Shown here in pieces: positions 1 through 23,860 of a DNA stretch of 30,014 bases. Made by a program: the position numbers and the translations under genes. This stretch comes from Syncephalis plumigaleata (taxonomy: Eukaryota > Zoopagomycota > Zoopagomycetes > Zoopagales > Piptocephalidaceae). The stretch lies in NCBI GenBank assembly GCA_025201365.1, contig JAIXMF010000154.1, positions 1 to 30,014 of the forward strand. Reading direction: 5' to 3'. The notes under the pieces are model-generated. The model searched no databases. It saw only the letters and a program-made list of their open reading frames with translations, and was not told the DNA's origin. Within the stretch, counting starts at the first letter, position 1. Each line of letters starts with the position of its first letter.

Positions 1-511
1 TATACTCATATACATGATGCTCAATACAATCATTTCAATAGAATATAGCCAACCATGATGGTTGTAACAGGTGTACGCGTCGTTATTGATGGAGTATTCT
101 GAAATGATGATGATGTGTAGATTCAAACAATGGACAGAGCACACAGTTACACGACATGGTAGACATTAACAATGGCAAGTCAGCGTATATCTCATTGTTT
201 AATTAGTATCAAGTAAATGTAGTATCTGTAATCAATCAATGAATAGTGCTGTCATACTGATAGATACTAGTAGTAGTCATTGTAGATTAGGTAAAAGTGT
301 CTAGATGTAAGCAATTCGATTGCGTATCTACTGTTCGATATCCATATGATTGACATGGCACAATTGCAACCTGTTTGATGTTCATTAGGACAAAGGCGAC
401 ATTCATGCATGGTAGCATCATTCAGAAGCAATTATTGGATATGCGATGATATCGATTTGTCTATTCTGTATGGCATTGTTGTATTACGCCTATTCCACCT
501 ATAAATAAACA
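1..511. other. Upstream intergenic stretch, no gene seen
   Basis: No convincing coding exon is visible. The stretch lacks the regular GTAAGT/CTAAT/TAG units that begin after position 730, so the microexon array does not extend here. It presumably carries the promoter of the gene starting at 512 or 648. Isolated GT- and AG-containing words occur but do not form a consistent model. Confidence 0.5.
500..508 (+). promoter_or_regulatory. Possible TATA box of the microexon gene
   Basis: The sequence TATAAATAA lies about 150 bases upstream of the ATG at 648 and just upstream of a TCATCATCA-rich stretch that could hold the transcription start. If this is the TATA box, the in-frame ATG at 512 would lie too close to the start site, which favours the ATG at 648. 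This is inferred from sequence and spacing only. Confidence 0.3.
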
Positions 512-547
512 ATGCTAATCGATTCATCTTATCATCATCATCATCAG

Positions 548-635
548 GTGTGTCTACTCTTTTTATTCTATTCTATACTCATTACTCCATTTCGTTTGTT
601 TGTTTGTTTGTTTGTTTCTATTACTCTTCCATTAG
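548..635 (+). other. Probable leader intron with TTTG repeat
   Basis: A GTGTGT donor follows CATCATCAG at 547, and a pyrimidine-rich stretch ends in ATTAG at 635. In between is a short tandem run of TTTG (about 592-617). Splicing joins 547 to 636. The 36 bases from an ATG at 512 to 547 would be in frame with the exon at 636, so this is either a 5' UTR intron (start at 648) or the first coding intron (start at 512, adding 16 residues including a His run). Confidence 0.5.
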
Positions 636-647
636 GACAATATCAAC

Positions 648-3600
648 ATGGAATTATCTGCTGATAACAATAACAATAATAGCCAGCCTATAGTCAATGC
701 TACAACATCCGTATCATCAAATTCCACTGGTATTTCTATTATCATCATCATCATCGATACTAGTCAACATGCTAATCGTAATACTATCATCTAATGGTCT
801 TTCTAATGACAATCAATAGATGGTAAGTCTATATCGTATGACGTTGATTGCGATACTGATGATGATGCCACCTATGATGCTGTCAATCATAGCTGGTGAG
901 TTAAACAACGAGTGAGCATGACATACGTTGTGTTGACTGGAATGTAAATCAAAATCATATGTTACTATTATAAAAGCAGACGTAAGTTGATATTCTGTCT
1001 AAATAAACATACAATGTACTAATTGCAATACTCGTATGATAGGAGGTGAGTTGTGAATCACGATGATACTTTGCCATACGCTCATTGGAATGTGGCAATC
1101 GATTCCCGTATGATTATCATGCATAGGAACACGTAAGCTACTAGTATCATTGCAATGAGCCATTTGATTCACGTATGATTGTGTGTATTAGTGGGTAAGC
1201 GAGCACTCGTTGGAATGTGGCATTCGATTCACCGATGATGACGTGTAATAGATTGTAAGTGGGCGGTATTCTGATTGCAGTATACGTCATACTAATTGCA
1301 ATGGCACAATTGATTCACTTGTCATTCCACACACACACACATATGACAGCATGTATGTGATCATTTCGATCATAGCCTATGATGTGCTCATTACAAGTTG
1401 ACATGTCATGATGCGCGTACGATGACCTGTAACAGGATGTAAGTTGCTAGTCTAGCATCATCGTATAATGTACTAATAACAACAACAACAATCATCATCA
1501 TTCTCTTCGCATATGATTGCACTAGTATGTAAGTGGACATTTCCACACTAATGCATGATATGTTAATAGCAATGCATCACACACACACATATATATATAA
1601 TAGATTGTAAGAAGTTAGCATTCCAGTCTTACTAGTCGATGTACTCATTACCCTATGACATACAATTCACATATGATTATGAGTAATAGTATGTAAGTGA
1701 TGATCATTGCAATGTGCGAGCGGTTAATTACAAACTGATTGATGATTCACATATGCATCCATGTAACAGAGGGTAACTAGACATTCCTATCGTGATATGT
1801 GATGTGTTAATTGAAATGAGGGACATGGTTCATGATGGATGATTACACGGCATAGACTGTAGGTCGGCATTCTAGTATCAGTATACGGCATGCTAATCAT
1901 AGTATTTATTTATTTATTATTACGAATAATAGAAGGCAAGTCATTATGATGACTATAGGATACAGTATGCTAATTGTAGCATGATACATGATTGACTTGT
2001 AATAACATATGCAGAAGAAAGTAAGCTAGCATTCCAATAATAATCACAATAATCATAATGCAACATACAATTCATATACATGTGTGTGATGATGATCACA
2101 CGACTTAGGATGTAAGTTGACACGTGGACTACAATCTCAAATGTAGCTCACCTATGACTATGGAATACAATAGGCCGTAAGTTATCATTTCGATTGAAGC
2201 ATACGAGACATTAATTGGAGTGTGGAATACAATCCACGTACTATCACGTATAACAGAAGGTAAACTAGCATGTTAATGACAATAGACAATGTATGCTAAT
2301 AAGAGTGTGGCACATGATTTGTATATGAATACGTACAGCGAAGAGTAAGCTAGTATTATGATGACAATGAATGAAGTATTAATTGTAGTGCGGCATACAA
2401 TTTCCGTACGATTACGAACGATAGCCTGTAAGCAAGCATTCTAATGACAATCGGACCATGTACTAATTGGAATACGGCATGCGATCTACATACAATTATG
2501 TACAGAAAAAGGTAAACTAGTATTATAATAACAATGGGTGAAGTATTAATTGTAGTATGACGTATAATTTCTGTATGATTATGAATGGCAGACGGTAAAT
2601 GAGCATAATGCCTACAGCATGAGATGGGGCTGATCATAATGCACCATACAATCCTCGTATGATTACCCGTTACAGACAGTAAGTTGGCATCTTGGTTTCA
2701 CTATGCAATGATCTAATTGTAAATTGGGGTATGACTCGCTTGTGATTGTGGATGGCAGAAAGTAGGTTAGCATATCAATGTCAGCATACAATCGTCCAAC
2801 TGTAATTAACATATAACTGCTTATGATTACGTATGATAGACGGTAAGCTTACATATGGATCATGGCATGCAATGAGCTAATCATATTGTGTTACTCGATT
2901 TCTATACAAGACCATAGCAAATGGAGTAAGTTAATATACGATTACAGCCTACGGTGAATTAATATGACACCTAATACGCATATGTTTACGCATGACAGAT
3001 GGTAAGTTTGTATCATGATTACACTATGTGATGTATTAATTTTAATGAATATGATCCATACGTTATTACAAATAATAGGTGGTAAGTTAACATAATGACT
3101 GCAGCATATGGCAGGCTGATTATAACATTCGATTTCTGCATGATCATGACTGGCAGACAGTAAGTGATCATAGCAACTACAGCATACAATGGGCTGATCA
3201 TAATGCACCATACAATCCTCGTATGATTACCCGTTACAGACAGTAAGTTGGTACACTAATTTCACCATTCAGTGAGCTTACTATAAATTGAAACATAATT
3301 CACGTACAATGGTACGTGGTAGATTGTAAGTTAGCATGGTGATCACAGAATACAACGAGTTAACGTAACACGTAATAAACGTATGCCTATACCTGACAGA
3401 CCGTAAGTTAATAGATCAATTGCGGCATATGATAGTCCAACTGTAATTAACATATGGCTGCATATAATTACGCATGATAGACGGTAAGCTAGTATATTGA
3501 TTATATGTTTAATGAGCAAATCGTATCGCGAACTCAATTTCTATACAATTATATGTGACAGATCGTAAGTCAACGGACGACTGCAGTATACGGTGAATTA

Positions 3601-6600
3601 ATATGGCACCTAATACACGTATGATTATGAATGGCAGACAGTAAGTGGGCGTAATGATAGCAGCATACGATGGGCTGATCATAATGCACCATACAATTCT
3701 CGTATGATTGCCCGTTACAGGAAGTAAGTTGGCAAACTGATTTCATCATTCAGTGAGCTTACTGTAAATTGAAACATAATTCTAATATGATTATACGCGG
3801 TAGCCGGTAAGTTAGCATGTCAACTGTAGCACGTGAGTTCGTTAAAGTTTAACATATGCTTTACTTTTGATTATGGATGGCAGGGTGTAAGTCATCGTTA
3901 TTGATTACGGTATACAGCAAATTAATACTAATGCGGTATACCATTGGCGTATGCTTGTAATGACAGATGGTAAGCCAGCACCATAATCGCAGCATACGAT
4001 TGACTGATTGCGATGTAACGCTTTACCGATTTGTGATTATGCATGACAGCCGGTAAGCTATTAGATTGATTGCAGCCTATAACAAGTTGATTAAATACAA
4101 TGAATTAATATAACACTTCTTAATACACGTATGATTATGCATGGTAGACGGTAAGTTATCAAGATTGATTATAGCACACGATGGATTAATATAGCATGGA
4201 ATCCATGTACGATTATGCATGGTAGAGGGTCAGTTAACATGTCAGCTGTAACGCATGAGCTCATTAGTATTTAACATATGCCTTACTTCTGATTATGGAT
4301 GGCAGATCGTAAGTTATCGCACTGATTAAAACTTACGATAGTCCAATTGTTATTGACATATGGTTACTTATGATTACGTATGATAGACGGTAAGCTTACC
4401 TAGTGGTTATGGCATGCAATGAACTAATCATATTGGGTACTCGATTTTTATATAATTGTATGAGATAGACGGTAAGCTAACACGATGATTACAGCATGTG
4501 ATAAAAACTAATAACGGATTAACATACAACTCTACATATACTTGTACCTGGTAGACTGTAAGTTAGCATATCAATGTCAGCATACAATCGTCCAACTGTA
4601 ATTAACATATGGCTGCATATACTTACGTATGATAGACGGTAAGCTTACATATGGATCATGGCATACAATAAACTAATCATATTGTGATACTCGATTTTTG
4701 TATAATTGTATGAGATAGACGGTAAGTCAACATACGGGCTGAAGCATACGGTGAATTAATATGACACCTAATATACGTATGCTTATAATTATTAGAAAGT
4801 AAGTTTATATACAGGTTTCATCAAATAGTAAACTCATTAAAATGCCCATTACAATTTCATAGCTTTCTGAACGGGGGAAAGTAAGTCAATATACAAAATC
4901 TAGTATGCAGTGAGCTGATTGTAGTGGTATACCATTGACATATGCTTATGAATGATAGAATGTAAGCTAGCATTACCATTACTGCATGCAACGAATTAAT
5001 CGTAATGGGGCATATGATTCACATGTGATTACAAACGATAGAAGGTAAGGTATTATTCAATGTTAATGTTGAATGAACTAATTGCAAAATGCTCTATGAT
5101 TCACGTATAATTACATGTGATAGTTTGTAAGCTGACATGCTGGTTACAAGATGTGACATGCTAATGGTAATGTCATTAAATGATTCACATAAAACTACAA
5201 CTGTTAGGGGGTAAGTCATCATTCTGATTACAATCTACGGCATACTGATTGGAATATCACAAATGATTAATGTATGGTTGCATGATAGTTTGTAAGTTTT
5301 TTTATTTTTGCCAATCAGCTTGAGCTGAACCACCATTGTCCTCCATCGGGACGGATAGTTTGTAAGTTAATACCCGAATGATAATGTATCATGCACTCAT
5401 TACAATGGGATGTTCAATCTACGTAGAATCCTGTACAGAAAGACGTAAGTTTTATCGTTTGATGTGGTCAAGCATCTTGTGAGACTAATCCACTGCTGTA
5501 TCTCCTAGTTGGAGGCTGAGAAGCAACGTGTAAGTCATCATTCTGATTACAATCTACATCATGCTAATTATAATACGATATGTGATTGTATCGCTATTAT
5601 AGCAAGTAAGTTTATATCCAAATGATGATGCATCATACACTCATTACAATGGGATGTACAATTCACGTATAATCATGTATAGGAAGCGGTAAGCTTTATC
5701 GTTTGATGTGGTCAGATATCTTATGAAGCTAATCCACTATTGCGTGTCCTAGTTGGAGGCTGAGAAGCAGCGTGTAAGTTGATGTCACCATTACAATCTA
5801 CGGTATACTAATCGGAGTATGACAAATGATGAACGTACGGCATAGTTGAAAGAAGCGAATCAACATGTAAGTTGATGTCACGATTACAATCTACGGTATA
5901 CTAATCGGAATACGATATGTGCTTGTATCATTATCATAGGAAGTAAGTTAATATTTGAATGATAATGCATCATGCACTTATTACAATTGGATTACAATTC
6001 ACATAGTATTATGCACAGGAGAAAGTAAGCTTTATCGTTTGATTTGATCAAGCATCTTATGAAGCTAATCCACTATTGCGTGCCCTAGTTGGAGGCTGCG
6101 AATCAACATGTAGGTTGATGTAACAATTACGATCTACGGTATACTAATCGAGTATGACAAATGATTGATGCATGGCATAGTTGGAGGAAGCGAATCAACA
6201 TGTAAGTTGATGCTACGATTACAATATACGGTATACTAATCGGAATATCACAAATGATTAACGTATGGCTGTATGATAGCTTGTGAGTTGCAAGTGTCAG
6301 CTTATAGACATGAAGCATTAATCATAGTGTGACATACAACTCCCGTATGATCATGGATACTAGGATGTAAGCTAGCATTGTTAACATTGATACGTCGATC
6401 TAATTGCACTGTGGTAAACAACTTGCGTGTGATTACATATGACAGCTTGTAAGTGGGCATTGTAATTACAGCATGCGGTGTACTAATTGCATTATGACAC
6501 ATGATTCACGTATGGTTGTGTGTGGTAGTTTGTAAGTTTATTATCCTTGTTACGACATACGAGACATTAATTGGAATGGGACATACAATCCACGTATGAT

Positions 6601-8463
6601 TATGCACATCAGGGAGTAAGTCAGCATTCATGTTGTAATACGATATTGATAGCTGATAGTGATTTGGCATATCATTCATATATATGCATGTGTGAATAAT
6701 AGGCCGTAAGCTAGCATTCTAATGGCAATTTGACGATGGACTAATAATCGTAATGATGTGGTGTACACCCACAAATGATCATAAATAATAGATGGTAAGA
6801 AAGTCAACCTATTCATTGGAATAGTATAGTCGCTAACCGTAGTATGATATTTCATTCGTATATGCTTACGTGTCATAGGCAGTAAGTGGACATTCTAATG
6901 CTATCGTATGGTAGATTGATTGCAGTATGATGATATACGTTTCATGTATGGCCACATTCTATAGTTTGTAAGTGGGCATTTTGATTGAAATGCGACATAC
7001 AACTCACCTATGATTATGCGTGATAGGAGGTAAGCAGGCACTCTTATACCGGTATATGACATGCTAATGGCAATGTATGACATATGATCCATGCATGATC
7101 ATGTATGATAGAAGAAGGTAGGCTAGCATTCTAGTTGCACGTATTCCCCACTAATTGCAATATGGGATACGATCCATGTCTATGTGATTGCGTATGATAG
7201 CAAGTAAGTTGATGTATTGTTGCCGTGTATGTCGTGCTAACAACAACATCATCATGCCATATGATTGACATATAACTATTGAACAGAAGGTAAACTAGTA
7301 TGCCGATCAGAATAGACGATGTGCTCATTGCAATGCAAACACGATTCCTATACACTTCTATACGATAGGATGTAAGTCGATAGTACTGTTACATTCTATG
7401 GTGCACTAATCACAAGACAACATACGAATCACATTTGATTACGTAGAATAAAGGGCAAGTCGACATTTCAATGGCAATTTGCAATACGCTAATTACATTG
7501 CGGCATTCAATTCCCATATGATTGTGAATGACAGGAGGCAAGTTGGCATTTCTAATGACAATCTATGACGTGCTAATTGCAATGTACGCCATATGGATCG
7601 TGTATACTCATGTATAATAGCATGTGAGTGAGCACTTTTACTTGCAATAGGTGACATGCTAATGACGATATGTGGCATATGATTCACGCATTACCGGATT
7701 AACAGAAGGCAAGCCAGTGATTTGATCGTGATATGTCATGTGCTAATGGCAATACGACATGCAATCCATGCATAATCACATACAATAGGAGGCAAGTCAA
7801 TGGATTGATGACAAGCTATGCTATGCTAAATGCAATACGACTTACTATTATACAATAATGGGCAATAGAAAGTAAGCAATCATCTCGACTAGGATGGATG
7901 ATTCATTGATTGCAACATGTAACATGGCTCATTCACAATGGTACAACACAGGATGTAAGTCAAAAGATGGCATAGTCACGATGCATGATGTACGACTAAT
8001 CGATGTGCGATATGCAATCCGATACAATCATATCGAATAGCAAGTAAGCTGATATTCCCGATGATCGTGTATGATCACTCAACCATAATGTGATACTCGA
8101 TCCATGTGGATTGTAAATAATAATAATAATAGGAAGTAAGTGGGCATGTCAATCAATGTATACGCATTACTCATTGTAATGTGACATGTTCTCCACGTAT
8201 GCTGACATACATCAGATTGTAAGCTATCTTTCCGATTGCCATAGACTATACACTGATTACGATCAATGTACGATACGATATGCGTATGATTGTATGATAG
8301 CTTGTAAGTTGGCAGTATGACGATAACAAATGCCGCATTAATTGTAATGGAATACGCGTTAATTGTTAAGGCATCTTGAGGAATGGTAAGTAATAATCCA
8401 CAATAATTATACTCATACTAATCCATTATGATTACAGAACAAGACAAGGACATTATCAAGTAG
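648..8463 (+). CDS. Gene built from about 93 microexons, coiled-coil protein of ~177 residues
   Basis: Not a family I recognise. Exon 1 (coding 648-729) encodes a start rich in Asn, Ser and Thr and ends one base into a codon. Then follow 93 exons of 2-21 nt, 75 of them exactly 3 nt, each flanked by AG and GTAAGT-like sites. The last exon (8438-8463) encodes EQDKDIIK (its first codon is split) and stops at TAG; AATAAA lies at 8546. Exon lengths total 534 nt with no in-frame stop. The product, in order: acidic/aromatic stretch (DADEEHWIHDYIY), Lys/Arg-rich stretch, Thr-rich stretch, LSERGK (one 18-nt exon), a coiled coil of Leu-headed heptads, a short hydrophobic patch (LDLFGAMAF), and a basic tail (SIRRKIKKF). 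No signal peptide or membrane helix is seen. The frame's coherence is direct evidence; actual splicing is inferred. Alternatively most of 730-8437 is one long intron, which would also stay in frame. Confidence 0.72.
730..8437 (+). repeat. Tandem array of ~94 related short introns with codon-sized exons
   Basis: Units average about 82 bases. Typical unit: GTAAGTTAGCAT, then CTAATTG(C/T)AATG, then CA(C/T)GTATGATTA, then GATAG or ACAG, then the exon. Microexon starts (3 nt unless length given): 820, 893, 980(2), 1043, 1127(6), 1192, 1252, 1350, 1436, 1526, 1604, 1690, 1770, 1856, 1933, 2015(6), 2109, 2174, 2257, 2339(6), 2425, 2506(6), 2592, 2676, 2759, 2840, 2911(15), 2999, 3079, 3157, 3240, 3323, 3400, 3481, 3562, 3638, 3721, 3804, 3884, 3967, 4050, 4148, 4226, 4306, 4387, 4469, 4555, 4636, 4719, 4796, 4863(18), 4959, 5042, 5124, 5208, 5289, 5359, 5439(6), 5509(21), 5603, 5683(6), 5753(21), 5846(21), 5940, 6019(6), 6089(21), 6181(21), 6280, 6364, 6446, 6529, 6613, 6703, 6792, 6879, 6965, 7027, 7112(6), 7201, 7287, 7369, 7447(8), 7535, 7621, 7706, 7789, 7869, 7952, 8041, 8133, 8216, 8301, 8381(5). 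Confidence 0.8.
5439..6282 (+). repeat. Coiled-coil module: 21-nt heptad exons between 3- and 6-nt exons
   Basis: Five exons of 21 nt (5509, 5753, 5846, 6089, 6181) encode LEAEKQR, LEAEKQR, LKEANQH, LEAANQH and LEEANQH. Between them lie KD, Q plus EA, and E plus EK from 6- and 3-nt exons, and L follows at 6280. Reading across the joins puts leucines 10, 7, 10, 7 and 7 residues apart, as in a coiled coil with two three-residue stutters. The block [6][21][21][3] is duplicated with a 336-bp offset (5683 to 6019). The introns before three of the heptad exons share a distinct sequence with a TGAAGCTAATCCACTATTG-like branch region. Confidence 0.8.
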
Positions 8464-9193
8464 ATATTATAGGTATTCAAGTCAAGAATGTATTGGTGCA
8501 AGTCCCTTTAGTGTCCATGCCATTCAAGTCATTATTCCTTGATCTAATAAATATATCTACAAAATCATTCAATCATTTATTGAATAAATATGTCGTATTC
8601 TGACCATTAAGAAAGAAATGGAACCAATTTGTTTGTATATATTGTTTATTTATTATTAGTTCTTGACATTATTGACAATTCATCAGTTGGATACAGACCA
8701 GGTAAGTTACTAACTAGAGATGGCAAAAACATATGAATGAATATGTTCAAGTGTTATTACTATATTATCATTGCTGTCATCGTTACTTATTGAAGATGCA
8801 GCATACAATCAATGTGGTCCAGGCGAGAATGAGAGATGATGATCATCCAGTCATACGTCGACACACCACACACACTCGCATCTATTTATACGCATATCAT
8901 TGATCTTCTTTACTTGGCTCTCGTTTATCTTTCCTTGACACACTTACACGACTTGTCTTTTCTCTTTCTTTGTTCAACTATACAATCTTATATACATTGC
9001 ACTTGTAGTTATTCAACAGAATTACACTCGTGATTACAAATAGCAGTGTGCGTGTGTGTTATTTCTTTATTCTCTATTGGTATAAGAGCATTACATCGTC
9101 GTTGCTGTCTTCGTCTACTTCTCCTTGTTTGCCACTTGGTATTTGTGCGCATATAAACTTGTTTGACGTGTTGCACGTCGTCGTACAGTTGTC
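8464..9193. other. 3' region of the microexon gene and promoter of the next gene
   Basis: AATAAA at 8546-8551 follows the TAG at 8461 and is the likely polyadenylation signal. No supported coding exon is visible. An isolated GTAAGT with CTAAC-like branch (8701-8712) and a later AG hint at an untranslated exon or intron in 8640-8800, but no frame supports it. A CACACA and TGTGTG-rich part near 8866-8880 and 9045-9060 is simple sequence. Confidence 0.4.
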
Positions 9194-12186
9194 ATGACAA
9201 GTGCTCAACCTGACAAGGCAGCTCCACTGCCACTAGAGAAAAAGGAAAGCAAGGTAGATATGAACGTGAATTTGAGTGTGATATTTGATAAAGTCTAACT
9301 ATCGATAGACAACTGTAGTATCCACCACTGTATATACCAGGAATGATTATATAGCACTAGCTATTGTCACTTTATTGGCGTTTATAACGCGTCTCTACAA
9401 GTTGGCTATACCAGCGGAAGTCGTGTATGTATCAGCGATAGTAGTAGTCGATGCATCTATGTATTGTGATGATAGCTAACGCGTATATATAACACATATA
9501 TATTCTTCTATCTAGTTTCGATGAAGTACATTTCGGTAAATTCGCCTCGTATTACCTGCGTGGTACATACTTCTTCGATGTACATCCACCATTAGGTAAA
9601 ATGCTATTGGCCGGTGTTGGCTGGTTGGCCGGCTATGATGGCGCATTCCTATTCGATACTATTGGCGATAACTATATCACGCATAAGGTGCCGTATATGG
9701 CTTATCGTTCGTTTACGGCCATTTGTGGCGCACTAGTTATCCCGATAGCCTATGGCATTATGCGAGAGAGTGGCTACAGTCTATTGTCGACTACAATGGT
9801 CGCTATAATGTTGGCATTTGGTAAGATACTCGTCGTAGATGATTTGTAGTATTCCACATAGGCTTATAGTAATGAACATTTAGACAACGCATTGATCACT
9901 CAGTCTCGACTAATCTTGCTAGATTCAATGTTGATGCTCTTTATGATCATGGCTATCTATAGTTATATTCGTTTCTATAAGCTACGATACCAGTAAGTGT
10001 AGCATGCGTGTAAATACACTAAGCATTAAATAATAACGAATGATTGTATAGACCATTTACTAGAGTATGGTGGTTCTGGATGGTATCTACTGGCATCAGC
10101 TTGGGTTTAACAACTAGGTAAGATGATGATATAGCTATTATTAACTTTCTTAATAATAATATATATATATGAATAGTGTGAAAATGGTAGGATTATTTGT
10201 AGTAGCACTAGTAGGCATTTGTGTAGTATGGGATCTATGGAATAAACTAGATTATCGACAAGGATTAACCATGGTAAGTAGATGATGATGATAGTAGGAT
10301 ATTATTTCTAATTTAATTAACATACGCTCATTAGCGACAATGGACACGTCACTTCTTTGCTCGAGTGATTGGTTTAATCTATGTGCCACTGTTCGTTTAC
10401 CTCATCTCATTTTACATTCACTTTATGGTATTGAACAAGAGTGGACCAGGTGATGAATTCATGAGTAAAGGATTCCAGCGTACACTTATTGGTAGTAAAA
10501 TACTAAGACACTCGTATTGTAAGATTCATTCTTGATAGTAACAATTATATCCAAGTATCTTACTAATGTGATACTTTATTAGCCATTCGAGATGGTGATG
10601 TCATTCGACTACAAAACAACGAGAATCCCGGTTTCTTACACTCGCATTTCCATAACTATCCATTACGCTATGATGATGGTCGAATTAGTACACAAGGTAA
10701 TTTAGCAATACACAGCATGCAGTACTCGCATTATATTAATATATATATATGTATCTATATAGGTCAACAGGTCAACACTTATCAGTTCCCTGATAGTAAT
10801 AATGAATGGCGTGTACAATTGGCGTGTCATACACCGGCTGAAGTGGACATGCTACGTGCACCGTCCAACAAGTCATTGGCACCAGGACGCTACTTGTCAC
10901 GCCCCATTCGTCATGGTGATGTTATTCAGTTGCACCATATTGCCACGAATAAGACAATGGTTACACACGATGTGGCATCGCCATTAACCACGACTAATAC
11001 CGAGATAACCGCCGTTGATCTCGGTGACCCCGCGTTATCCGGTCGTTTCATCGACTCGCTCTTCACTTTAGAAATTGATGACGGTGAGGATGCAACCACT
11101 AGTAAAACGGGACATGCTACCATTTGGAAGACACAAGATCAGTTGGTACGTATTGTTCAAGTACGACTGGGTGTCACCCTACATTCAGGCTCTGCTAAAC
11201 TGCCAGACTGGGGATTCCAACAATACGAGGTCAATGGTGCCAAAGTGAAAACAGGTTCGGGCAGTGCATGGACAGCTAAGGATATTATCGGTCAGATTAG
11301 TAAGTTATTAATCTTGCTAATAATAATAATAATGGTATTAACGCTTATTGTATGTATTTAGTAATTGGTCAAAAGAAAGAACGTCAACCGGTATATCGAC
11401 CATTTATGAGTAAATTTGTTGAATTACAATCTGCCATGATTATTCATAATGCCGGTCTAACTGAGAAACATCCATATCAGTCAGCACCGTACACCTGGCC
11501 ATTAGTGTTGGGTGGCATTAGTTTCTGGACAAATAATGACACTAGACAACAAATCTACTTGTTGGCCAATCCATTTGGATGGTGGTTAAGTGATCTTGCC
11601 TTACTCGTGTATCCCACCTTGATTCTAGCCGATCTACTTACACGTCAACGTGGATTTGTGGCCATTGATGAACGTAAGTCGTGATTATAATTAGTGTTAT
11701 ACACACGTATACATGTGGATGTACTTTTGTAGGCTCACCATTTATTATGTAGCGGTACGTGGTCGATTCTATCGTTCTGGCGGTTTCCTCATTCTCGGTT
11801 GGACCCTCCACTACTTGCCGTTCTTCTTTATGGGTCGATCACTATTCTTGCACCACTACTTGCCCGCGTGTATTATCGGGTATCTAGCAATTGGTATTAT
11901 ACATCAATTTGCTTGTATACCTGGTATTGATCAATTGTCAAAGAGGATTAGTACTACTACTAGTACTAGCACTGCTACTGATAATAAGGATGTCATAAAG
12001 GCACCTACATTCTATCGAGCTATTGCACCGCCATTGGCGTGGATCACCGCTATTCTTATTGTAGCGATGCAGATCGGATGCTTTTGGTATTTCAAAGCAC
12101 CAACTTATGGTCATGACTCGTTAACTCAAGAAGAATGGACTGCTCGTAGATGGTCTCCTGGATGGAATTTCCACTTTTCATCTTGA
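9194..12186 (+). CDS. PMT4: Protein O-mannosyltransferase, Pmt4/POMT1 type
   Basis: Integral ER membrane enzyme that transfers mannose from dolichol-phosphate-mannose to Ser/Thr of secretory and membrane proteins. I read 11 exons: 9194-9253, 9309-9424, 9516-9820, 9884-9992, 10052-10117, 10177-10273, 10335-10491, 10583-10696, 10763-11299, 11362-11673 and 11753-12186, giving 768 residues, normal for the family. Loop 1 has the catalytic Asp-Glu in FDEVHFGKF, followed by DVHPPLGKML. A central MIR region begins near LHSHFHNYPLRYDDGR and STQGQQV and continues to THDVASPLTTTNTEIT; these words are typical of the Pmt4 subfamily rather than Pmt1 or Pmt2. The C-terminal helices include LGWTLHYLPFFFMGR and LHHYLPA. 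The last acceptor was set at 11752 because the earlier AG at 11732 breaks the frame. AATAAA at 12190 lies just past the stop. Confidence 0.93.
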
Positions 12187-15947: not shown

Positions 15948-16507
15948 TAATAAACTGACTGATTATTAGGGGTTCGTTAAGTAGCGAAGAAAGAGAATAA
16001 AAGAAGAAAAGTAGTTGCAGCTATAATCACGAAATAGATTAGGTAGTTATGCGTAAATCGTACAGTTTTACTGATGATTGTTTATTTGATCATATCAATC
16101 TTCACTTGTGGATGGCGAGTGAACATAGCAGCATATGCCAGTGTTAGAGACATAACAATAGCAGAATGCTCTTTAGGGGAGAGTAGGGAGAGATGTTATC
16201 GCCAGCTTGCTCTACGTTTACGCTGACTTACGTAAAACTGCGATGCCAGGACAATATTTGATATCACATGAACAATATTCATTATGCTCATGATGCACAC
16301 CCTGACAAGAATAAACAAGGAGGCATTTGTAATGCATACCTAAATACTCTCCCCTTTGAGCGATAGTTTGACGACAAGCTACCGCTGTCGTAACTGACTG
16401 TATTCGCCATTTTATGAACGTATATAAACTGCTTCATTTTTACTACACATCCTATCCTGTATCGAACCATTTAGTCGTTATCCATACCAATAGCAGTCTA
16501 GTTCATC
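15948..16507. other. Divergent promoter region
   Basis: This 560-base region separates the minus-strand UBE3D-like gene from the plus-strand ubiquitin-like gene and must hold both promoters. GTATATAAAC at 16420-16429 is a good TATA-box candidate about 80 bases ahead of the ATG at 16508. A minus-strand open frame at 16288-16470 has no recognisable content. No other element was identified. Confidence 0.5.
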
Positions 16508-18841
16508 ATGCGGCTCATTATCGAATTGAATCCTCGCACCCTTGCTTTATTACTTCGAGAGAAGCCGGAAGAAGTCGCCGCGGCATTAGATGAAACATTA
16601 GATGAAAAAATTCAAATGAGCCGAATGTTAGTATTGCTTGCTGCAATAGAAGAATCGCAAGAAAATCGCAGCACATCAAGTCAACAGTCTTCACGAGGTG
16701 ATAATAATAATGAAGATGCAGAAGATATTGACGAGGATAATACTGATGATGATAAGCTAAATGGAACAGATATACCTGATTGTAATTTTTCCTTAAAGAC
16801 GGACAGTCTACTTAATAAGGATCTTACAAGAATAGCCGCTAAACTACAAGCATTGGGAATAAATTGTGATGATAATTCAAATGAGCAAACTACAGCGTCC
16901 ACTAGTTCTACACCAAGTGTGAATAATGATGACAATCCAAATGAACAAGCCACGGCATCTACTAGTTCTACATCAAGCGCGAATAATGATGACAATTCAA
17001 ATGAACAAGCCACGACGTCCACTAGTTCTACATCAAGCGCGAATAATGATGGCAATCCAAATGAACAAGCCACGACGTCTACTAGTTCTACATCAAGCGC
17101 GAATAATGATGGCAATCCAAATGAACAAGTCACGACGTCTACTAGTTCTACATCAAGTGCGAATAATGATGACAATCCAAATGAACAAGCCATGACGTCT
17201 ACTAGTTCTACATCAAGCGCGAATAATGATGACAATCCAAATGAACAAGTCACGGCGTCCACTAGTTCTACATCAAGTGTGAATAATGATGACAATCCAA
17301 ATGAACAAGTCACGGCGTCCACTAGTTCTACATCAAGTGCGAATAATGGTGATAATTCAAGCGAGCAAACTACAGCTTCCACTAGTTCTACATCAAGCGC
17401 GAATAATGATGGCAATCCAAATGAACAAGTCACGACGTCTACTAGTTCTACATCAAGCGCAAATAATGATGGCAATCCAAATGAACAAGCCACGACGTCC
17501 ACTAGTTCTACATCAAGTGCGAATAATGGTGATAATTCAAGCGAGCAAACTACAGCGTCTACTAGTTCTACATCAAGCGCGAATAATGATGGCAATCCAA
17601 ATGAACAAGCCACGACGTCTACTAGTTCTACATCAAGCGCGAATAATGATGGCAATCCAAATGAACAAGTCACGGCGTCCACTAGTTCTACATCAAGTGT
17701 GAATAATGATGACAATCCAAATGAACAAGTCACGGCGTCCACTAGTTCTACATCAAGTGCGAATAATGGTGATAATTCAAGCGAGCAAACTACAGCTTCC
17801 ACTAGTTCTACATCAAGCGCGAATAATGATGGCAATCCAAATGAACAAGTCACGACGTCTACTAGTTCTACATCAAGCGCAAATAATGATGGCAATCCAA
17901 ATGAACAAGCCACGACGTCCACTAGTTCTACATCAAGTGCGAATAATGGTGATAATTCAAGCGAGCAAACTACAGCGTCTACTAGTTCTACATCAAGCGC
18001 GAATAATGATGGCAATCCAAATGAACAAGCCACGACGTCTACTAGTTCTACATCAAGCGCGAATAATGATGGCAATCCAAATGAACAAGTCACGACGTCT
18101 ACTAGTTCTACATCAAGTGCGAATAATGATGACAATCCAAATGAACAAGCCATGACGTCTACTAGTTCTACATCAAGCGCGAATAATGATGACAATCCAA
18201 ATGAACAAGTCACGGCGTCCACTAGTTCTACATCAAGTGCGAATAATGGTGATAATTCAAGCGAGCAAACTACAGCGTCTACTAGTTCTACATCAAGCGC
18301 GAATAATGATGGCAATCCAAATGAACAAGCCACGACGTCCACTAGTTCTACATCAAGTGCGAATAATGGTGATAATTCAAGCGAGCAAACTACAGCGTCT
18401 ACTAGTTCTACATCAAGCGCGAATAATGATGGCAATCCAAATGAACAAGCCACGACGTCCACTAGTTCTACATCAAGCGCGAATAATGATGGCAATCCAA
18501 ATGAACAAGCCATGACGTCTACTAGCTCTAGACCGACTACTAGAGGTGTTTCCAGCGAGAATGAGCCACCCTCATACCAGGCAACGCCACGCTCGAATGT
18601 GGATCGTACACCTTGTATGCAAATATTTATTGTAACACCTAGGGGCAGGACTCTTACATTATTTGTAGATCCATCTGATACAATTCATGATATAAAGCTG
18701 GATATTGAAGACAAGGAGGGCATTCCACCAGATCAGCAACGTTTACTATTTGTCAACAAGCAACTAGATGATCGCCTTACTCTATCGGATTACAACATCC
18801 AAAAGGGGTCTATAGTTCATTTGATTCTCGCCCTTCGTTAA
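16508..18841 (+). CDS. Ubiquitin-like domain protein with ~28 tandem 20-residue repeats
   Basis: Single-exon 777-residue protein. Residues 1-50 are helical and Leu/Glu-rich; 51-118 are acidic ([18 protein letters not shown]). From about residue 120 to 676 run about 28 repeats of 20 residues, consensus [20 protein letters not shown]. The C-terminal 74 residues (704-777) are a ubiquitin fold starting [10 protein letters not shown], with [14 protein letters not shown] and [10 protein letters not shown]; my hand alignment gives 49 of 74 identities to ubiquitin. It ends ...ILALR and stops, without the Gly-Gly needed for conjugation, so it should act as a fixed UBL, for example docking to the proteasome or UIM/UBA proteins. 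Lysines at ubiquitin positions 27, 33, 48 and 63 remain; 6, 11 and 29 are lost. The Ser/Thr-rich repeats form a disordered linker. No signal peptide. AATAAA overlaps the stop at 18841. Confidence 0.88.
16867..18526 (+). repeat. 60-bp coding minisatellite, ~28 copies, with 420-bp higher-order unit
   Basis: The 60-bp unit repeats without indels, so the frame is kept. Most copies differ at only a few positions. A variant copy (GGTGATAATTCAAGCGAGCA) recurs at 17347, 17527, 17767, 17947, 18247 and 18367. The seven-copy block 17221-17640 is repeated at 17641-18060 with one mismatch by my comparison, which shows recent block duplication. Because the unit is a multiple of three, long open frames also occur on the other strand and in other frames; these are by-products. 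Confidence 0.95.
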
Positions 18842-19187: not shown

Positions 19188-19391
19188 TTTATCTTTCTCT
19201 TTTTCCTTATCATTATTATTCTTCGTCCATTTGTTTATTACATAATAATTTATAGTAGTTCGCTAATCGTCTAATAGTTCAATTCTTATACAACATAAAA
19301 AGCCCTATTGTTTAGTACGGATATGTGTAGTTGTAATAATATATAATATAATCCGTCCAAATCCTAGTTGAACCATCGAATTGATAAGATT

Positions 19392-20385
19392 ATGAGCAAT
19401 AACGGCGGTAGCGAGCTGTTATGGGGATACATCTCCTTGAATCCATCGGGGGAGCAGTCAATCTGGGCCTTCCTAATGGAACACGGGAATTTAGAGGATG
19501 CGCGAACACGAGCGCGCAGCCATTACATTCAAGCGTTGATGTCTGTCTTCATACTCGTTACATTCGTGCAAAACATCTACTACGCGACGATTCTAGTCTA
19601 CTATAAGCCAGATAGCGTTGCCAGTTGGTGCTGTTTCCTACAAGCATTGACGGGAGTAATCTCGAATGCTTTCAATGTAGCCACCGGTCTGCCTGGAGGT
19701 CCATCTTGTCGCGTCTGCAACTGGATATACGCGGTCGGTATCACAATATCTAGCATATGCATCAGCGTGTGCCTACTACTTAGGGCCTATGTCATTACGA
19801 GTAAAAGTAAACTGCTACTGGTTGTAGGCATACTACTCATGCTTCCACTACCGGCGACAGTATGGATTCTTTGGGTCAAGGGCGAATCGATGATTACAGC
19901 CGATGCGGGCTGTATCACCGTTTTCCCCTCTTACCTGCCATGGTTCCGCTTGATACTTGACGTCTCCATTAACACGTTATTCTCGGTCATATTCCTACAA
20001 GTCGTGATCCAACAGTATAGAAACATCGGAAGTCGATGCTGGAAACGATTGCAATCCGATGGTATACTGTATCTGCTCTGCGTGGCGGGATCCAACATTT
20101 CCTGCGCGATCATTGTTGCATTCGAATTGCTTGGTGGATTTAGCGAGATGATGTTTCTGGTCGATTGTAAGTCGATTGATGTAAAGCGGTATAAGCACGG
20201 GAAAAGTACTAACGCGTATCCGTTTAGGGGCGGTGACTTCCATGCTGCTTATTCATCAGCATACGGGTATGCGAAAAGCATTCCTCGAGTACGAGGATTC
20301 CTCGCAGTATCAGAATATTCGAAATGCTGTTAAACCATTCCCAATGACAAAAAATAGTAGGAATCAGGTAGTTTCCTTTGATTAG
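19392..20385 (+). CDS. Seven-helix receptor-like membrane protein, copy 1
   Basis: Two exons (19392-20166 and 20228-20385) give 310 residues. Seven hydrophobic helices are visible: ALMSVFILVTFVQNIYY, WCCFLQALTGVISNAF, WIYAVGITISSICISVCLLL, LLVVGILLMLPLPATVWIL, FRLILDVSINTLFSVIFL, DGILYLLCVAGSNISCAII, and the last one formed across the intron (FLVDWAVTSMLLIHQ), so the intron cuts helix 7. The short outside N-terminus, a Cys pair (GGPSCRVC and DAGCITVF) and the arrangement suggest a G-protein-coupled receptor-like protein, but I see no diagnostic family motif. It is paralogous to the gene at 21396: shared GPSC, YLP..R, the same intron position after DW. The first ATG at 19392 was chosen. Confidence 0.78.
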
Positions 20386-21395
20386 TTTTCTTTGTATCCA
20401 TCAGAGACTAGACAATCCACATAGTATAATGTAAAGAAAGAAAGAATAAATAATAATAAATAATAGAATAATCATTCGAGTCAAATAGATGACTATCGTT
20501 ATAGTGTTTATATAGAAAGTTACCACATACTGCTGTGTTGTTCATTGATCGGTTATACGCAAAGAAAAGTAATCATCGAATATATACGTGTTTTGTTAAA
20601 TCTTGTATACCGTGTTGAATTTAAGCATGTGCACTTCACCGCCATCAACCTGTTATCGTTCTTTGCGTCAACTGACAAAAATACGCAATGCCGAAATGCC
20701 CCGTCATCTTACGAGTTTCCTTTTTCTATGTGTCACACATGATTGCATGCAATTGCTATGATGAGACGTATTGGTCGCGTTGAGCAAAGGAGGCAGCCGG
20801 TTTTTGCATTACCTGTTTGATCGCTGAACCGAGTATTATTTTCAAAAAAGCAATATCTTTGCGAGAACATGCGTAAATAGTAAGTAGTTCATGACATGAA
20901 CACTATCCGATAAATCAACCACAATCTAATGATACACTAGTAGGCTAAGCATAAAACAGTTGATTTCGTATATTTATTCGTGCATATGCATATATCTGCA
21001 CGTAGCTGATGGCCGAATTCTAGGCAATGATACCAAAATAAATTCACCTATCTAATCATGCATGTGTTAATTTAATAGCTGGGTAAATGGTCTCATCGAT
21101 ACATATGCCATGCCGGTAGCAGTAGTACCGGCAGTAGCAACACTTGTGCTTGAACCTGTTTGAACCTCGGACCGTGCAATATAAACTAGTTCCATTTAAG
21201 TGCCAACCTCAATTGCTATCGGCAATATTAGACCTCTTTATAAATCCGTAATTTTATTTTATATCCTATTTACTTATTCCTGATCATACTCTGTTCTATT
21301 CTTATTTCGTGATATATAACTATAAATATATATAGAAGGAGAGTAAAGGAAAAGACAAAGCTCGTTCCACTTGTATAATAGTATTCGTGGAAAGC
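20386..21395. other. 1-kb intergenic region, no gene seen
   Basis: Lies between the two receptor-like paralogues. It holds the 3' end of the first (AATAAA near 20445) and the promoter of the second; a TATAACTATAAATATATATAG stretch around 21313-21334 is a TATA-like region about 65-80 bases ahead of the ATG at 21396. A 65-codon open frame at 20545-20742 has no recognisable product. No remnant of a third paralogue was seen. Confidence 0.45.
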
Positions 21396-22450
21396 ATGAA
21401 TGAGATAGAGGTGTCAAACAGTCTCAATGGATTCGAGTTTCTATGGGAGGTACGTAATGAGATTGTTCCCCTTCGAACACGCTACAGAACAGCAAGATTT
21501 CAACTTGCCTGTGCCACACTTGTATCGATTATCTTCCTGTACAATACGTGGCATTCGATCCTTGTCGCGTATCGATATCCGCGTAAGCTAGCACCATGGT
21601 GCTGCCTAATCATAGGTATACTCGGACTAGTAGTGATATGCACTATTGCCGTTCCATCAATAGGATTTGACGGTCCATCCTGCAACACGACCGGATGGTC
21701 CATCGTGGCAGGAGTGGTGCTGTCGACCATGGCCGCGAATGTCGTGCTATTCGAACGAGCCTATATTGCGTGTCGTCGTGCCAAATGGCTACTTGTTAGC
21801 GGTTTGTTTCTCACGTTCATACCCGGTCCTGTCTACATGCTTATCGTCGTTAACACTGGAAGTATCAAGTACACCAACCTACATGGATGTTACCTCAATT
21901 ATCCTGCGTATCTTCCATATGTGCGAGCCTTCACCGATCTACCGCAAAATATCATATTCGGCGTAATATTCTGTAGGGTCATCTATCACAATTACGTGCG
22001 ACACAGAGAGGAACTATGGAAGGAACTCGTGAAAGACGGCGTAATAACAATGCTCCTTGTTGCACTATCCAACATCACCTGTTTCATTATCGGCGAGAGC
22101 AATGTCTTGGGCGCGTATAGTAGCCTGGCCTACATTACCGATTGGTAAGTAGCTAGTTAGTTAGTTGGTTAATCGATAAAGAGGTGTATCTCCACTATGA
22201 TAAGCTAATTTAGCGTAGGGTCATAGCATCCACCTTACTTTCCGAGAACATCTACCGAATACATCTTGGACCGCAAACCACCAGTAAGAAGGGTAGTAGG
22301 AAGACTCAGCAATCCATTCATACTGATATGCCACTCGGAGGTATATCAACGACGTGTAGAGCCTATGAAATATCGGGATTATCCACTTTTCATGGCATGC
22401 AGTACACGTTTACAAATTCCGAACATCATCGGCTACAGAATATCGCGTAA
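21396..22450 (+). CDS. Seven-helix receptor-like membrane protein, copy 2
   Basis: Two exons (21396-22144 and 22219-22450) give 326 residues. Seven hydrophobic segments match copy 1 in order and spacing: QLACATLVSIIFLYNTW, WCCLIIGILGLVVICTI, WSIVAGVVLSTMAANVVLF, WLLVSGLFLTFIPGPVYML, a segment with DLPQNIIFGVIFCRVIY, DGVITMLLVALSNITCFII, and a last helix split by the intron (TDW then VIASTLLSEN). Shared with copy 1 are the APWCC/ASWCC word, GPSC, YPAYLPYVR and the intron position. The cytoplasmic tail is longer, Ser/Thr-rich and unlike that of copy 1, so the tails have diverged most. The acceptor at 22218 is used because the AG at 22213 breaks the frame. Function as a receptor is inference. 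Confidence 0.78.
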
Positions 22451-22716: not shown

Positions 22717-23860
22717 ATGAATATGTTAATGCGTCGACTCACTCTGGCACGAAATGTCTTGTACGCTTGTGATTCCACGCTACGCGTCCAAGTAAGCCAA
22801 TACTTGCAAGTGATCGTAGTAGTGCGGTAATACTGACGTAATACTTTCTTAGTGGCGAGTTGGCCCTAATCTTCTTATGAGAAGCCATGCCCTATCCACG
22901 GTAGGTATATTTTGTTCTGTTACTATTGTTACTATTGTTATTAATAATGCGTCAACTCTTCTACAGTCTTCCGCGGTTGCTCGCTGGGCCGATTCCTCGT
23001 CTCCGTTGGGCACAGCCATGCCGTTGAATCAGAGCAAGGAAACGCTTTCCTGGAAGGAACGAGCAGCACTGACTATGGCGCATCTTCTCGGCTACAATCG
23101 CCCTTCCTCCTTGTCCATTCGCGCTAGTCGTGATTTGTATGCAGCATGCGTAGAGGCTGCCAATGATAAGGCATTCTACGTTCATGGTATGTCCCATTAT
23201 GAGCAATTATATCGTCATCTAATATGCTTATTATCATTGTCATTATTATATATTGGTGTAGCATGCGGATTGCCTGATAATTTCAATACCTGGTTTGCCA
23301 TTACACAGATTCACGTCTGGATGCTTATGGTACGATTACGCCCCGAGAAACATGGCAAGGCATACGCGCAGGAATTGGTCAATCGATTCTTTGAAGATAT
23401 TGAGGATCGTATACGTGCACACGGAGTAAGTGGCTAACATAAGAATATCATTATCTTCACGACATGCTCCCTTACACTAGAAATGATCGTAGATTGAACA
23501 GAGTAGCATCATTAATAAAATGGTTCGAGAACGTCTTGATGCCTTTCGCGGTGGTGTTCTCGCCTACGACGAAGGAATGTGTAAATCGGATGCTGTATTG
23601 GCAGCGGCCATTTGGCGGTAAGTAATAGCATTTGATGTGTAATCAAATAGTACAATGAGCCTACCCTATCCATATTATTAGAATGCTAATCAACATGTAA
23701 ATCTACTAGAAATATACCAAATCTATCGCCACTTAACAAGGAATTGGCATTTATCGTACGTCATATGAGACGTCAACTAGCTGCCTTTGATCAATGGTCG
23801 TCTGATCGTCTACTCTACGGCCAGGTGAAGTTTCTGAAGCCCGCTGCCACTCTGGAATAA
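22717..23860 (+). CDS. CBP3: Ubiquinol-cytochrome c chaperone, Cbp3/UQCC1 type
   Basis: Mitochondrial assembly factor that helps cytochrome b translation and complex III assembly. Six exons (22717-22791, 22853-22900, 22967-23186, 23262-23425, 23493-23617, 23710-23860) give 260 residues. The N-terminus (MNMLMRRLTLARNVLYAC) is Arg-rich with little acid, as in a mitochondrial presequence. The family core spans about residues 80-240: LSWKERAALTMAHLLGYN, then AACVEAANDKAFYVHACGLPDN, FNTWFAITQIHVWMLMVRLR, and AQELVNRFFEDIEDRIRAHG. All six joins are in phase. Human UQCC1 and yeast Cbp3 have the same core; copy here is of usual size and looks intact. Confidence 0.92.

Follow-up and report, generated by a model that had tools for sequence, protein, structure and literature searches.

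The micro-exon genes (MEGs) of schistosomes have exons that are mostly multiples of three nucleotides in length. In the abstract of PMC10526429, MEG exons are given as 3–81 bp, and in its introduction as 6–81 bp, mostly 15, with introns of up to ~5 kb. The bicycle genes of aphids have ~17 exons on average, the internal ones being almost all in phase 2, and the aphid gene megacycle has more than 100 microexons (PMC9168663, accessible part). As far as the respective sources are accessible, exons of a single nucleotide occur in Arabidopsis APC11 (PMC4674806) and in Fusarium CYP621A (PMC12940212), and Xlr2 of the filamentous fungus Trichoderma virens contains a functional microexon (PMC11121469). 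Here, we describe a locus in a stretch of 30,014 nt from Syncephalis plumigaleata (GenBank assembly GCA_025201365.1, contig JAIXMF010000154.1, positions 1–30,014, forward strand; hereafter, the window). We consider it very likely, from the sequence, that positions 648 to ~8610 constitute a spliced protein-coding gene in which exon 1 is followed by 93 internal exons, of which 75 consist of one codon, and that this gene belongs to a large S. plumigaleata family with one branch in which no signal peptide is visible and another whose first exon resembles one, the latter likely encoding effectors. The genus is placed in Zoopagales, and both Piptocephalis and Syncephalis are mycoparasitic (PMC10386755, accessible part). 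Among the literature matches listed for Syncephalis, Zoopagales introns, fungal microexons and Zoopagomycota effectors or mycoparasites, no description of a fungal family of codon-sized exons was found, subscription papers being mostly outside this search.

Positions 1–9500 of the window were read, and the array was parsed with exon borders set by splice signals (Table 1). Apart from the 75 exons of 3 nt, the internal exons comprise 8 of 6 nt, eight of 15–21 nt, and single ones of 5 and 8 nt; the lengths of 91 out of 93 are thus divisible by three. Together they amount to 439 bases, against 7269 in the 94 introns (52–95 nt each). The GTAAG donor is present at 73 of the 93 internal exons. Counted without any fitted weights, 59 of the 70 GTAAGY motifs between positions 701 and 8400 sit in the arrangement AG-N3-GTAAGY, while 200 second-order Markov sequences gave a mean of 0.54 and a maximum of 5. 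One exon near 2911–2925 is ambiguous: either 15 nt from an earlier AG, or 7 + 8 nt divided with the preceding exon. The sequence-only reading, which had proposed a gene of mostly single-codon microexons, is supported at the level of the sequence, as is its count of 75 exons of 3 nt; the “2-nt” exon it listed is read here as 5 nt long (CAGAC; 8 nt in most copies), and the copy differences indicate that its “5-nt” penultimate exon measures 15 nt.

We searched the fungus’ own genome (32.6 Mb in 383 contigs) with the 5′ region of the gene and obtained 27 matches, the window gene included, 17 at full length and 10 partial. All 18 that were read among the 26 others hold both ends with a microexon array in between. 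A frame-blind parse of the resulting 19 copies yielded 1175 internal exons (952 of 3 nt and 79 of 6 nt), 1087 of which are divisible by three. The copies have a codon order near the start in common, ATG CTG AAGCAGAC GAG GAACAC TGG ATT CAT GAT TAT ATT TAT AGG, with variants, and among the ten copies with an 8-nt exon, the codon order near the end is shared as well. A motif of the last exon (22 nt, ≤1 mismatch) occurs 165 times in the genome and not at all in the control. Absence of the array’s reading frame from related sequences had been named beforehand as what would speak against a gene; in the 18 paralogues, layout and codon order recur, and stops are missing from the 3-nt exons.

Indeed, not one of the 952 frame-blind 3-nt exons, which stand in 557 distinct contexts, is a stop codon, when 42 would be expected from base composition by position. 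Genome-wide, the string TGATAG-NNN-GTAAGT occurs at 854 sites (15 in the control), where NNN is a stop in 2 instances and TGG in 21. The predicted frame leaves exon 1 in phase 1, is brought to phase 0 by the 5- or 8-nt exon, and to phase 2 by the 8-nt exon at 7447. Of the 713 3-nt exons in the 15 copies with frame-aware models counted here, 605 are in phase 0. For nine of the 19 copies, the optimum found with splice signals alone was already open in the expected frame (cost 0 in the frame-aware parse, where the stop rule was left off for the last 140 nt), and the cost for the window gene was 3.2. Differences between the copies are synonymous in the predicted phases: AAT/AAC and AAA/AAG at 7447, and TTG/TTA, CTT/CTC and GAG/GAA in the 15-nt exon at 8371. 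Non-synonymous cases occur as well, in that three copies have TAA for GAA in the 15-nt exon, ending one codon sooner, and in one copy the preceding CTT is replaced by CCT; the insertion-bearing copy L019 does not align at this exon. Copies without the 8-nt exon have a TAA or TGA within the penultimate exon.

The coding length of the window gene would then be 522 nt including the stop, for a protein of 173 residues with a C-terminal part that is coiled-coil-like. The C-terminal frame, last residues and stop at 8463 of the sequence-only reading, which had arrived at 534 nt, are not supported: in our model, the penultimate exon closes with the stop TG|A. Because this stop spans the last junction, we read the last exon as 3′ untranslated region (UTR). 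It contains an open frame of 54 codons, which the model does not join in frame. A coding role for the last exon in frame 1, where length differences among the 19 copies are mostly threes, was considered and abandoned once the penultimate-exon differences had fixed the phase and placed the stop ahead of it.

Divergence between the copies was assessed in two blocks. In the 5′ block (12 aligned copies), donors differ by 0.015 and acceptors by 0.046, as compared to 0.066 in intron interiors. The codons TGG, ATT, GAT, TAT, ATT and AGG never differ in 18 or 19 copies. At the other extreme, one codon read as GAT, ACG, AGT or AGC shows a pairwise difference of 0.54, where the surrounding 8–40 nt differ by 0.06–0.11; differences of at least 0.4 occur at 3 of the 18 codons vs. 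0.5% of 1178 intronic 3-nt windows. In the 3′ block (10 aligned copies), all but one of the 14 exons between 7112 and 8216 are invariant, with 0.5–10% difference in their 40-nt flanks.

A strong branch motif (CTRAY or TTAAY, 8–60 nt from the acceptor) is found in 782 out of 1021 introns of 17 copies (L010 and L019 left out), and in the window gene in just 73 of 94, so that the branch site previously seen before every acceptor does not hold throughout. The commonest distance from branch to acceptor, 40–44 nt, is long. In 510 introns parsed without AG penalty, the density of AG between motif and acceptor (last 20 nt excluded) is 0.0124 per nt vs. 0.0455 before the motif. Taken together, this depletion, the synonymous differences and the three fast-varying codons point to splicing and translation. 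A strong rule by which the first AG is the acceptor was tried: it altered the share of exons divisible by three from 1094/1197 to at most 1099/1152, with doubtful long exons in L024 and L015, and the frame-aware parse was run with a mild AG penalty in its place. Another idea we rejected is that a hairpin (CATAC...GTATG) shortens the 40–44 nt stretch from branch motif to acceptor: the segments fold below shuffled ones in 65 of 86 cases, yet there is no convincing covariation in 145 aligned segments (best z 3.1 over ~900 column pairs).

In the splicing we envisage, a donor belongs to each ~80-nt intron, in most cases along with a branch motif, and its acceptor is located 3 nt ahead of the next donor. 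With acceptor and next donor so close, splicing would have to proceed by intron definition, and the introns would probably be removed in order, every removal providing the following donor with an upstream exon.

In three loci that were matched by their 3′ end only (L029–L031), an array of this kind follows a first exon of another type (MKFSAIIAIAVAVVALTSLVAVEAS or similar) that looks like a signal peptide as judged by eye. A 37-nt piece of this exon occurs 111 times in the genome (≤3 mismatches) and not in the control. Ten out of 14 such loci could be parsed; the others were L030, for want of a recognisable first donor, and L035, L040 and L041, in whose last exon the exact motif is missing. 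The ten hold 202 frame-blind 3-nt exons without a stop vs. 5.8 expected and, if these exons are read as codons, 22 of the 202 specify Cys. The cost of the expected frame is 0 in five of the ten loci, no more than 2.4 in three, and 7.0 and 9.9 in the other two. L029, L033 and L036 would encode short proteins with adjacent Cys residues. This more numerous branch is very probably coding as well, with microexons that appear to specify short, often Cys-containing proteins behind the signal-peptide-like exon. They are probably effectors directed towards fungal hosts, a functional reading of which we are less certain than of the gene structure. The window gene, by contrast, seems to represent the branch without signal peptide, none being visible in its first exon by eye (no predictor was used). 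A JGI protein of 39 residues on a contig of 5217 bases (P0029; MKFSTIIAIAVIAVVVSLAMIDATPVLDRRG...) resembles the signal-peptide exon and is possibly a relative in another species. Simple arithmetic (27 copies with ~62 exons plus 111 copies with 23 to 33) puts the microexons of the genome at ~4,000–5,000, which is not a count; an estimate of 20,000–40,000 was discarded as too high, for it relied on a pattern whose frequency per exon is about ten-fold higher in three signal-peptide loci.

The profile built from 11 spliced models (E ≤ 0.1; scoring limited to the 8000 candidates with the most words in common) retrieved 9 proteins, all from Syncephalis plumigaleata, and Pfam gave no match above cut-off for four spliced models. 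We take the public models to be gene predictions. Many microexon codons are present in those of the same contigs, e.g., DAEADEEHWI-DYIY---KKSAIPL for the gene at L027, where the codons for H, R, I and E are skipped; the donors there are GTAGGT, GTAACT, GTAGGT and GCAAGT. Some public models seem to run into intron 1, and in those of the signal-peptide branch (11 of 13 matches fetched) most microexons are apparently missing, as seen by eye. The BDF22DRAFT_* proteins of Syncephalis plumigaleata are, therefore, probably incomplete, because microexons with weak donors were skipped or intron 1 was seemingly read.

The array has apparently grown in part by local duplication of units. Among intron pairs sampled in eight genes (all pairs in the window gene), identities of at least 0.72 occur in 3–11% of introns one to five units apart vs. 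0.5% of those at least 12 units apart, and 15 of the 92 similar pairs are associated with the same codon, which indicates duplication followed by codon change. Units paired at random are scarcely more alike (0.593) than shuffled ones (0.558), and most units are, therefore, old or of different origin. At G000:C1:1742751-1743502, AAG and GCC microexons alternate at intervals of ~82 nt, a pattern that repeated duplication of a two-unit block might leave. Positions 2400–5200 of the window are 98% identical to C318:156113-158912 (2.8 kb), where other matches to this stretch reach only 63–90%; this suggests a recent exchange or duplication between the two copies.

Several of our observations weigh against a gene of this kind. 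The splice-site weights were seeded from AG-N3-GT sites, by which the parse leans towards 3-nt exons; the counts of nearest AGs, among them that of AG-N3-GTAAGY in the window, were made without seeded weights. At nine control offsets inside introns, stops number 4–289 out of 952, and since two of these offsets are low (4 and 6; the other seven 19–289), part of the scarcity in the exons can stem from the consensus. For the 15 copies with the usual phase of exon 1, one wrong frame costs 19.9–24.1 and the other only 0.9–10.4; nine of the ten parsed signal-peptide loci have a wrong frame at cost 0, too, so that the frame test does not discriminate in these short arrays. In the 5′ block, the microexon columns differ more (0.117) than the intron interiors, and 7 of the 18 codons are invariant, as are 41% of the intronic 3-nt windows, for which reason invariant codons are no argument for coding. 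The first exon is out of its usual phase in four of the 19 copies (L010, L012, L018 and L021), long insertions are present in L010 (after exon 9) and L019 (after the last microexon), and the model for L027 needs several odd exons: some family members may be dead, wrongly assembled or wrongly parsed. The insertion in L010 resembles a mobile element by eye.

An unlikely alternative, to which we accord more weight than to any other, is that most microexons are usually skipped, the array acting as a compound intron or a ladder of optional sites, with a main product in which exon 1 is joined to the 21-nt and last exons. The omission of the weak-donor codons in the public model for L027 could reflect real exon skipping, and with nearly all exons symmetric the frame would survive it; selection against stops, none being found in 952 exons, would not be expected in exons that are never translated, and the synonymous differences in 8- and 15-nt exons amid runs of 3-nt exons also speak against this reading. 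That the locus is a non-coding satellite of intron-like units, or the outcome of introner-like insertions, with AG-N3-GT merely part of the repeat unit, is highly improbable: the regular ~80-nt spacing and the local duplication of units agree with it, but the units are too little alike, beyond the shuffled level, for a young satellite, and such an origin fits neither the lack of stops, the variation at the level of codons and the codon order recurring in paralogues, nor a signal-peptide-like exon standing before the same kind of array. We give equally little credence to the idea that these are former microexon genes, now mostly pseudogenes, in which the pattern is a fossil of coding selection. 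The out-of-phase first exons and the two long insertions are what decay might leave, against which stand the nine copies open in the expected frame unadjusted and the rarity of stops genome-wide. On these sequence tests, the branch of the window gene is coding.

Table 1. Elements of the microexon gene in the window, as predicted.
Feature	Positions	Strand	Remarks
5′ region (promoter side, leader, exon 1)	300..740	+	92–96% identity to paralogues
TATA-box-like TATAAATA	500..507	+	Position computed; putative function
Exon 1, MELSADNNNNNSQPIVNATTSVSSNST, 82 nt, with donor GTATTT; phase 1 at its end	648..729	+	
N-terminal microexon series common to paralogues: ATG CTG CAGAC GAG GAACAC TGG ATT CAT GAT TAT ATT TAT AGG ACT AAG AAGAAA GAT GCC AAG CGAAGA; phase 0 after CAGAC	820..2344	+	
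First phase-changing exon, 5 nt (CAGAC) in the window gene, 8 nt in most copies	977..981	+	
Middle array, mostly 3-nt exons	2425..5361	+	
Five 21-nt exons, 7-residue units (LEAEKQR twice, LKEANQH, LEAANQH, LEEANQH), amid 3- and 6-nt exons	5439..6201	+	
C-terminal microexon series CTT GAT CTT TTT GGA GCC ATG GCA TTT GAG AAGAAG CAA AAG GAT	6280..7371	+	
Second phase-changing exon, 8 nt, AATAAAGG; L024 has AACAAGGG, with two differences, both of them synonymous	7447..7454	+	
Ten 3-nt exons GAG CAT AAG GAG AAA GAT CAA GAA ATT CTT, read in phase 2	7535..8303	+	Nine of ten invariant among 10 aligned copies, one of which has CCT for CTT
Penultimate exon of 15 nt, with LHLEE at its end; stop TG|A spans the last junction	8371..8385	+	From copy differences
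Last exon, read as 3′ UTR	8438..8610	+	Start from the parse; end approximates the limit of the region common to copies

Further along the window (8701–30014), there is no site of the AG-N3/N6-GTAAGY type on the forward strand and two on the reverse strand. A long open reading frame at 16502–18841 includes 27.7 copies of a 60-bp repeat (16867–18530) that specify a Ser/Thr/Asn-rich stretch; its end presumably resembles ubiquitin. Two neighbouring open reading frames (19368–20333 and 21336–22148) resemble related multi-pass membrane proteins by eye, and the Cbp3-like neighbour gene at 22853–23434 is 70% identical to a protein of Syncephalis fuscata.

A gene of this structure would show how far exons can shrink where introns are short and recognised as units, and would make splicing fidelity testable, with ~94 introns to remove correctly from one 8-kb transcript. 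Since nearly every exon is symmetric and most are in phase 0, almost any subset of microexons could be skipped with the frame and the neighbouring codons unchanged. Usual gene finding would return partial proteins, and public databases would misrepresent a large set of candidate effectors from a fungal parasite. More tentatively, as a reading we hold to be less likely than not, the exon may equal the codon as a unit of architecture: the protein would be built from units of one codon plus an intron, which undergo duplication, loss and re-lettering residue by residue. Through the skipping of subsets, one locus could yield very many variants for use against fungal hosts, and certain codons would change several times faster than the adjacent introns, be it by selection or by a local mutational process.

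The family is unusual in degree and lineage. Introners generate introns that are near-identical copies across unrelated genes; the units compared here, within their own arrays, have diverged. Arabidopsis APC11 and Fusarium CYP621A show that exons of one to a few nucleotides can be spliced, but each case is one exon in an otherwise ordinary gene, and the microexon of Trichoderma virens Xlr2 is a single regulated one, as opposed to dozens in the Syncephalis gene. Consecutive very short exons divisible by three, the broad mark of a micro-exon gene, are present here as far as the sequence tells. Schistosome MEGs are similar to the Syncephalis family in having many very short exons and, should the branch with the signal-peptide-like exon prove to be secreted, in encoding secreted proteins of a parasite; they differ in belonging to an animal parasite and in introns that reach ~5 kb instead of 52–95 nt, and the accessible part of PMC10526429 describes no runs of dozens of single-codon exons. 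Neither our profile search (8000 candidates scored) nor Pfam turned up a sequence relation to MEGs, no direct comparison with them having been made. Aphid bicycle genes, as described in the accessible part of the source, likewise form a large, rapidly evolving family of putative effectors with microexons, but in a different kingdom and with exons in phase 2, whereas the single codons of the Syncephalis family are mostly in phase 0, outside the bicycle pattern. An independently evolved fungal family of microexon genes is, on the sequence, our best reading; if true, it would provide an independent fungal case in which parasitism, fast-evolving proteins and microexons are linked, as in schistosomes and aphids.

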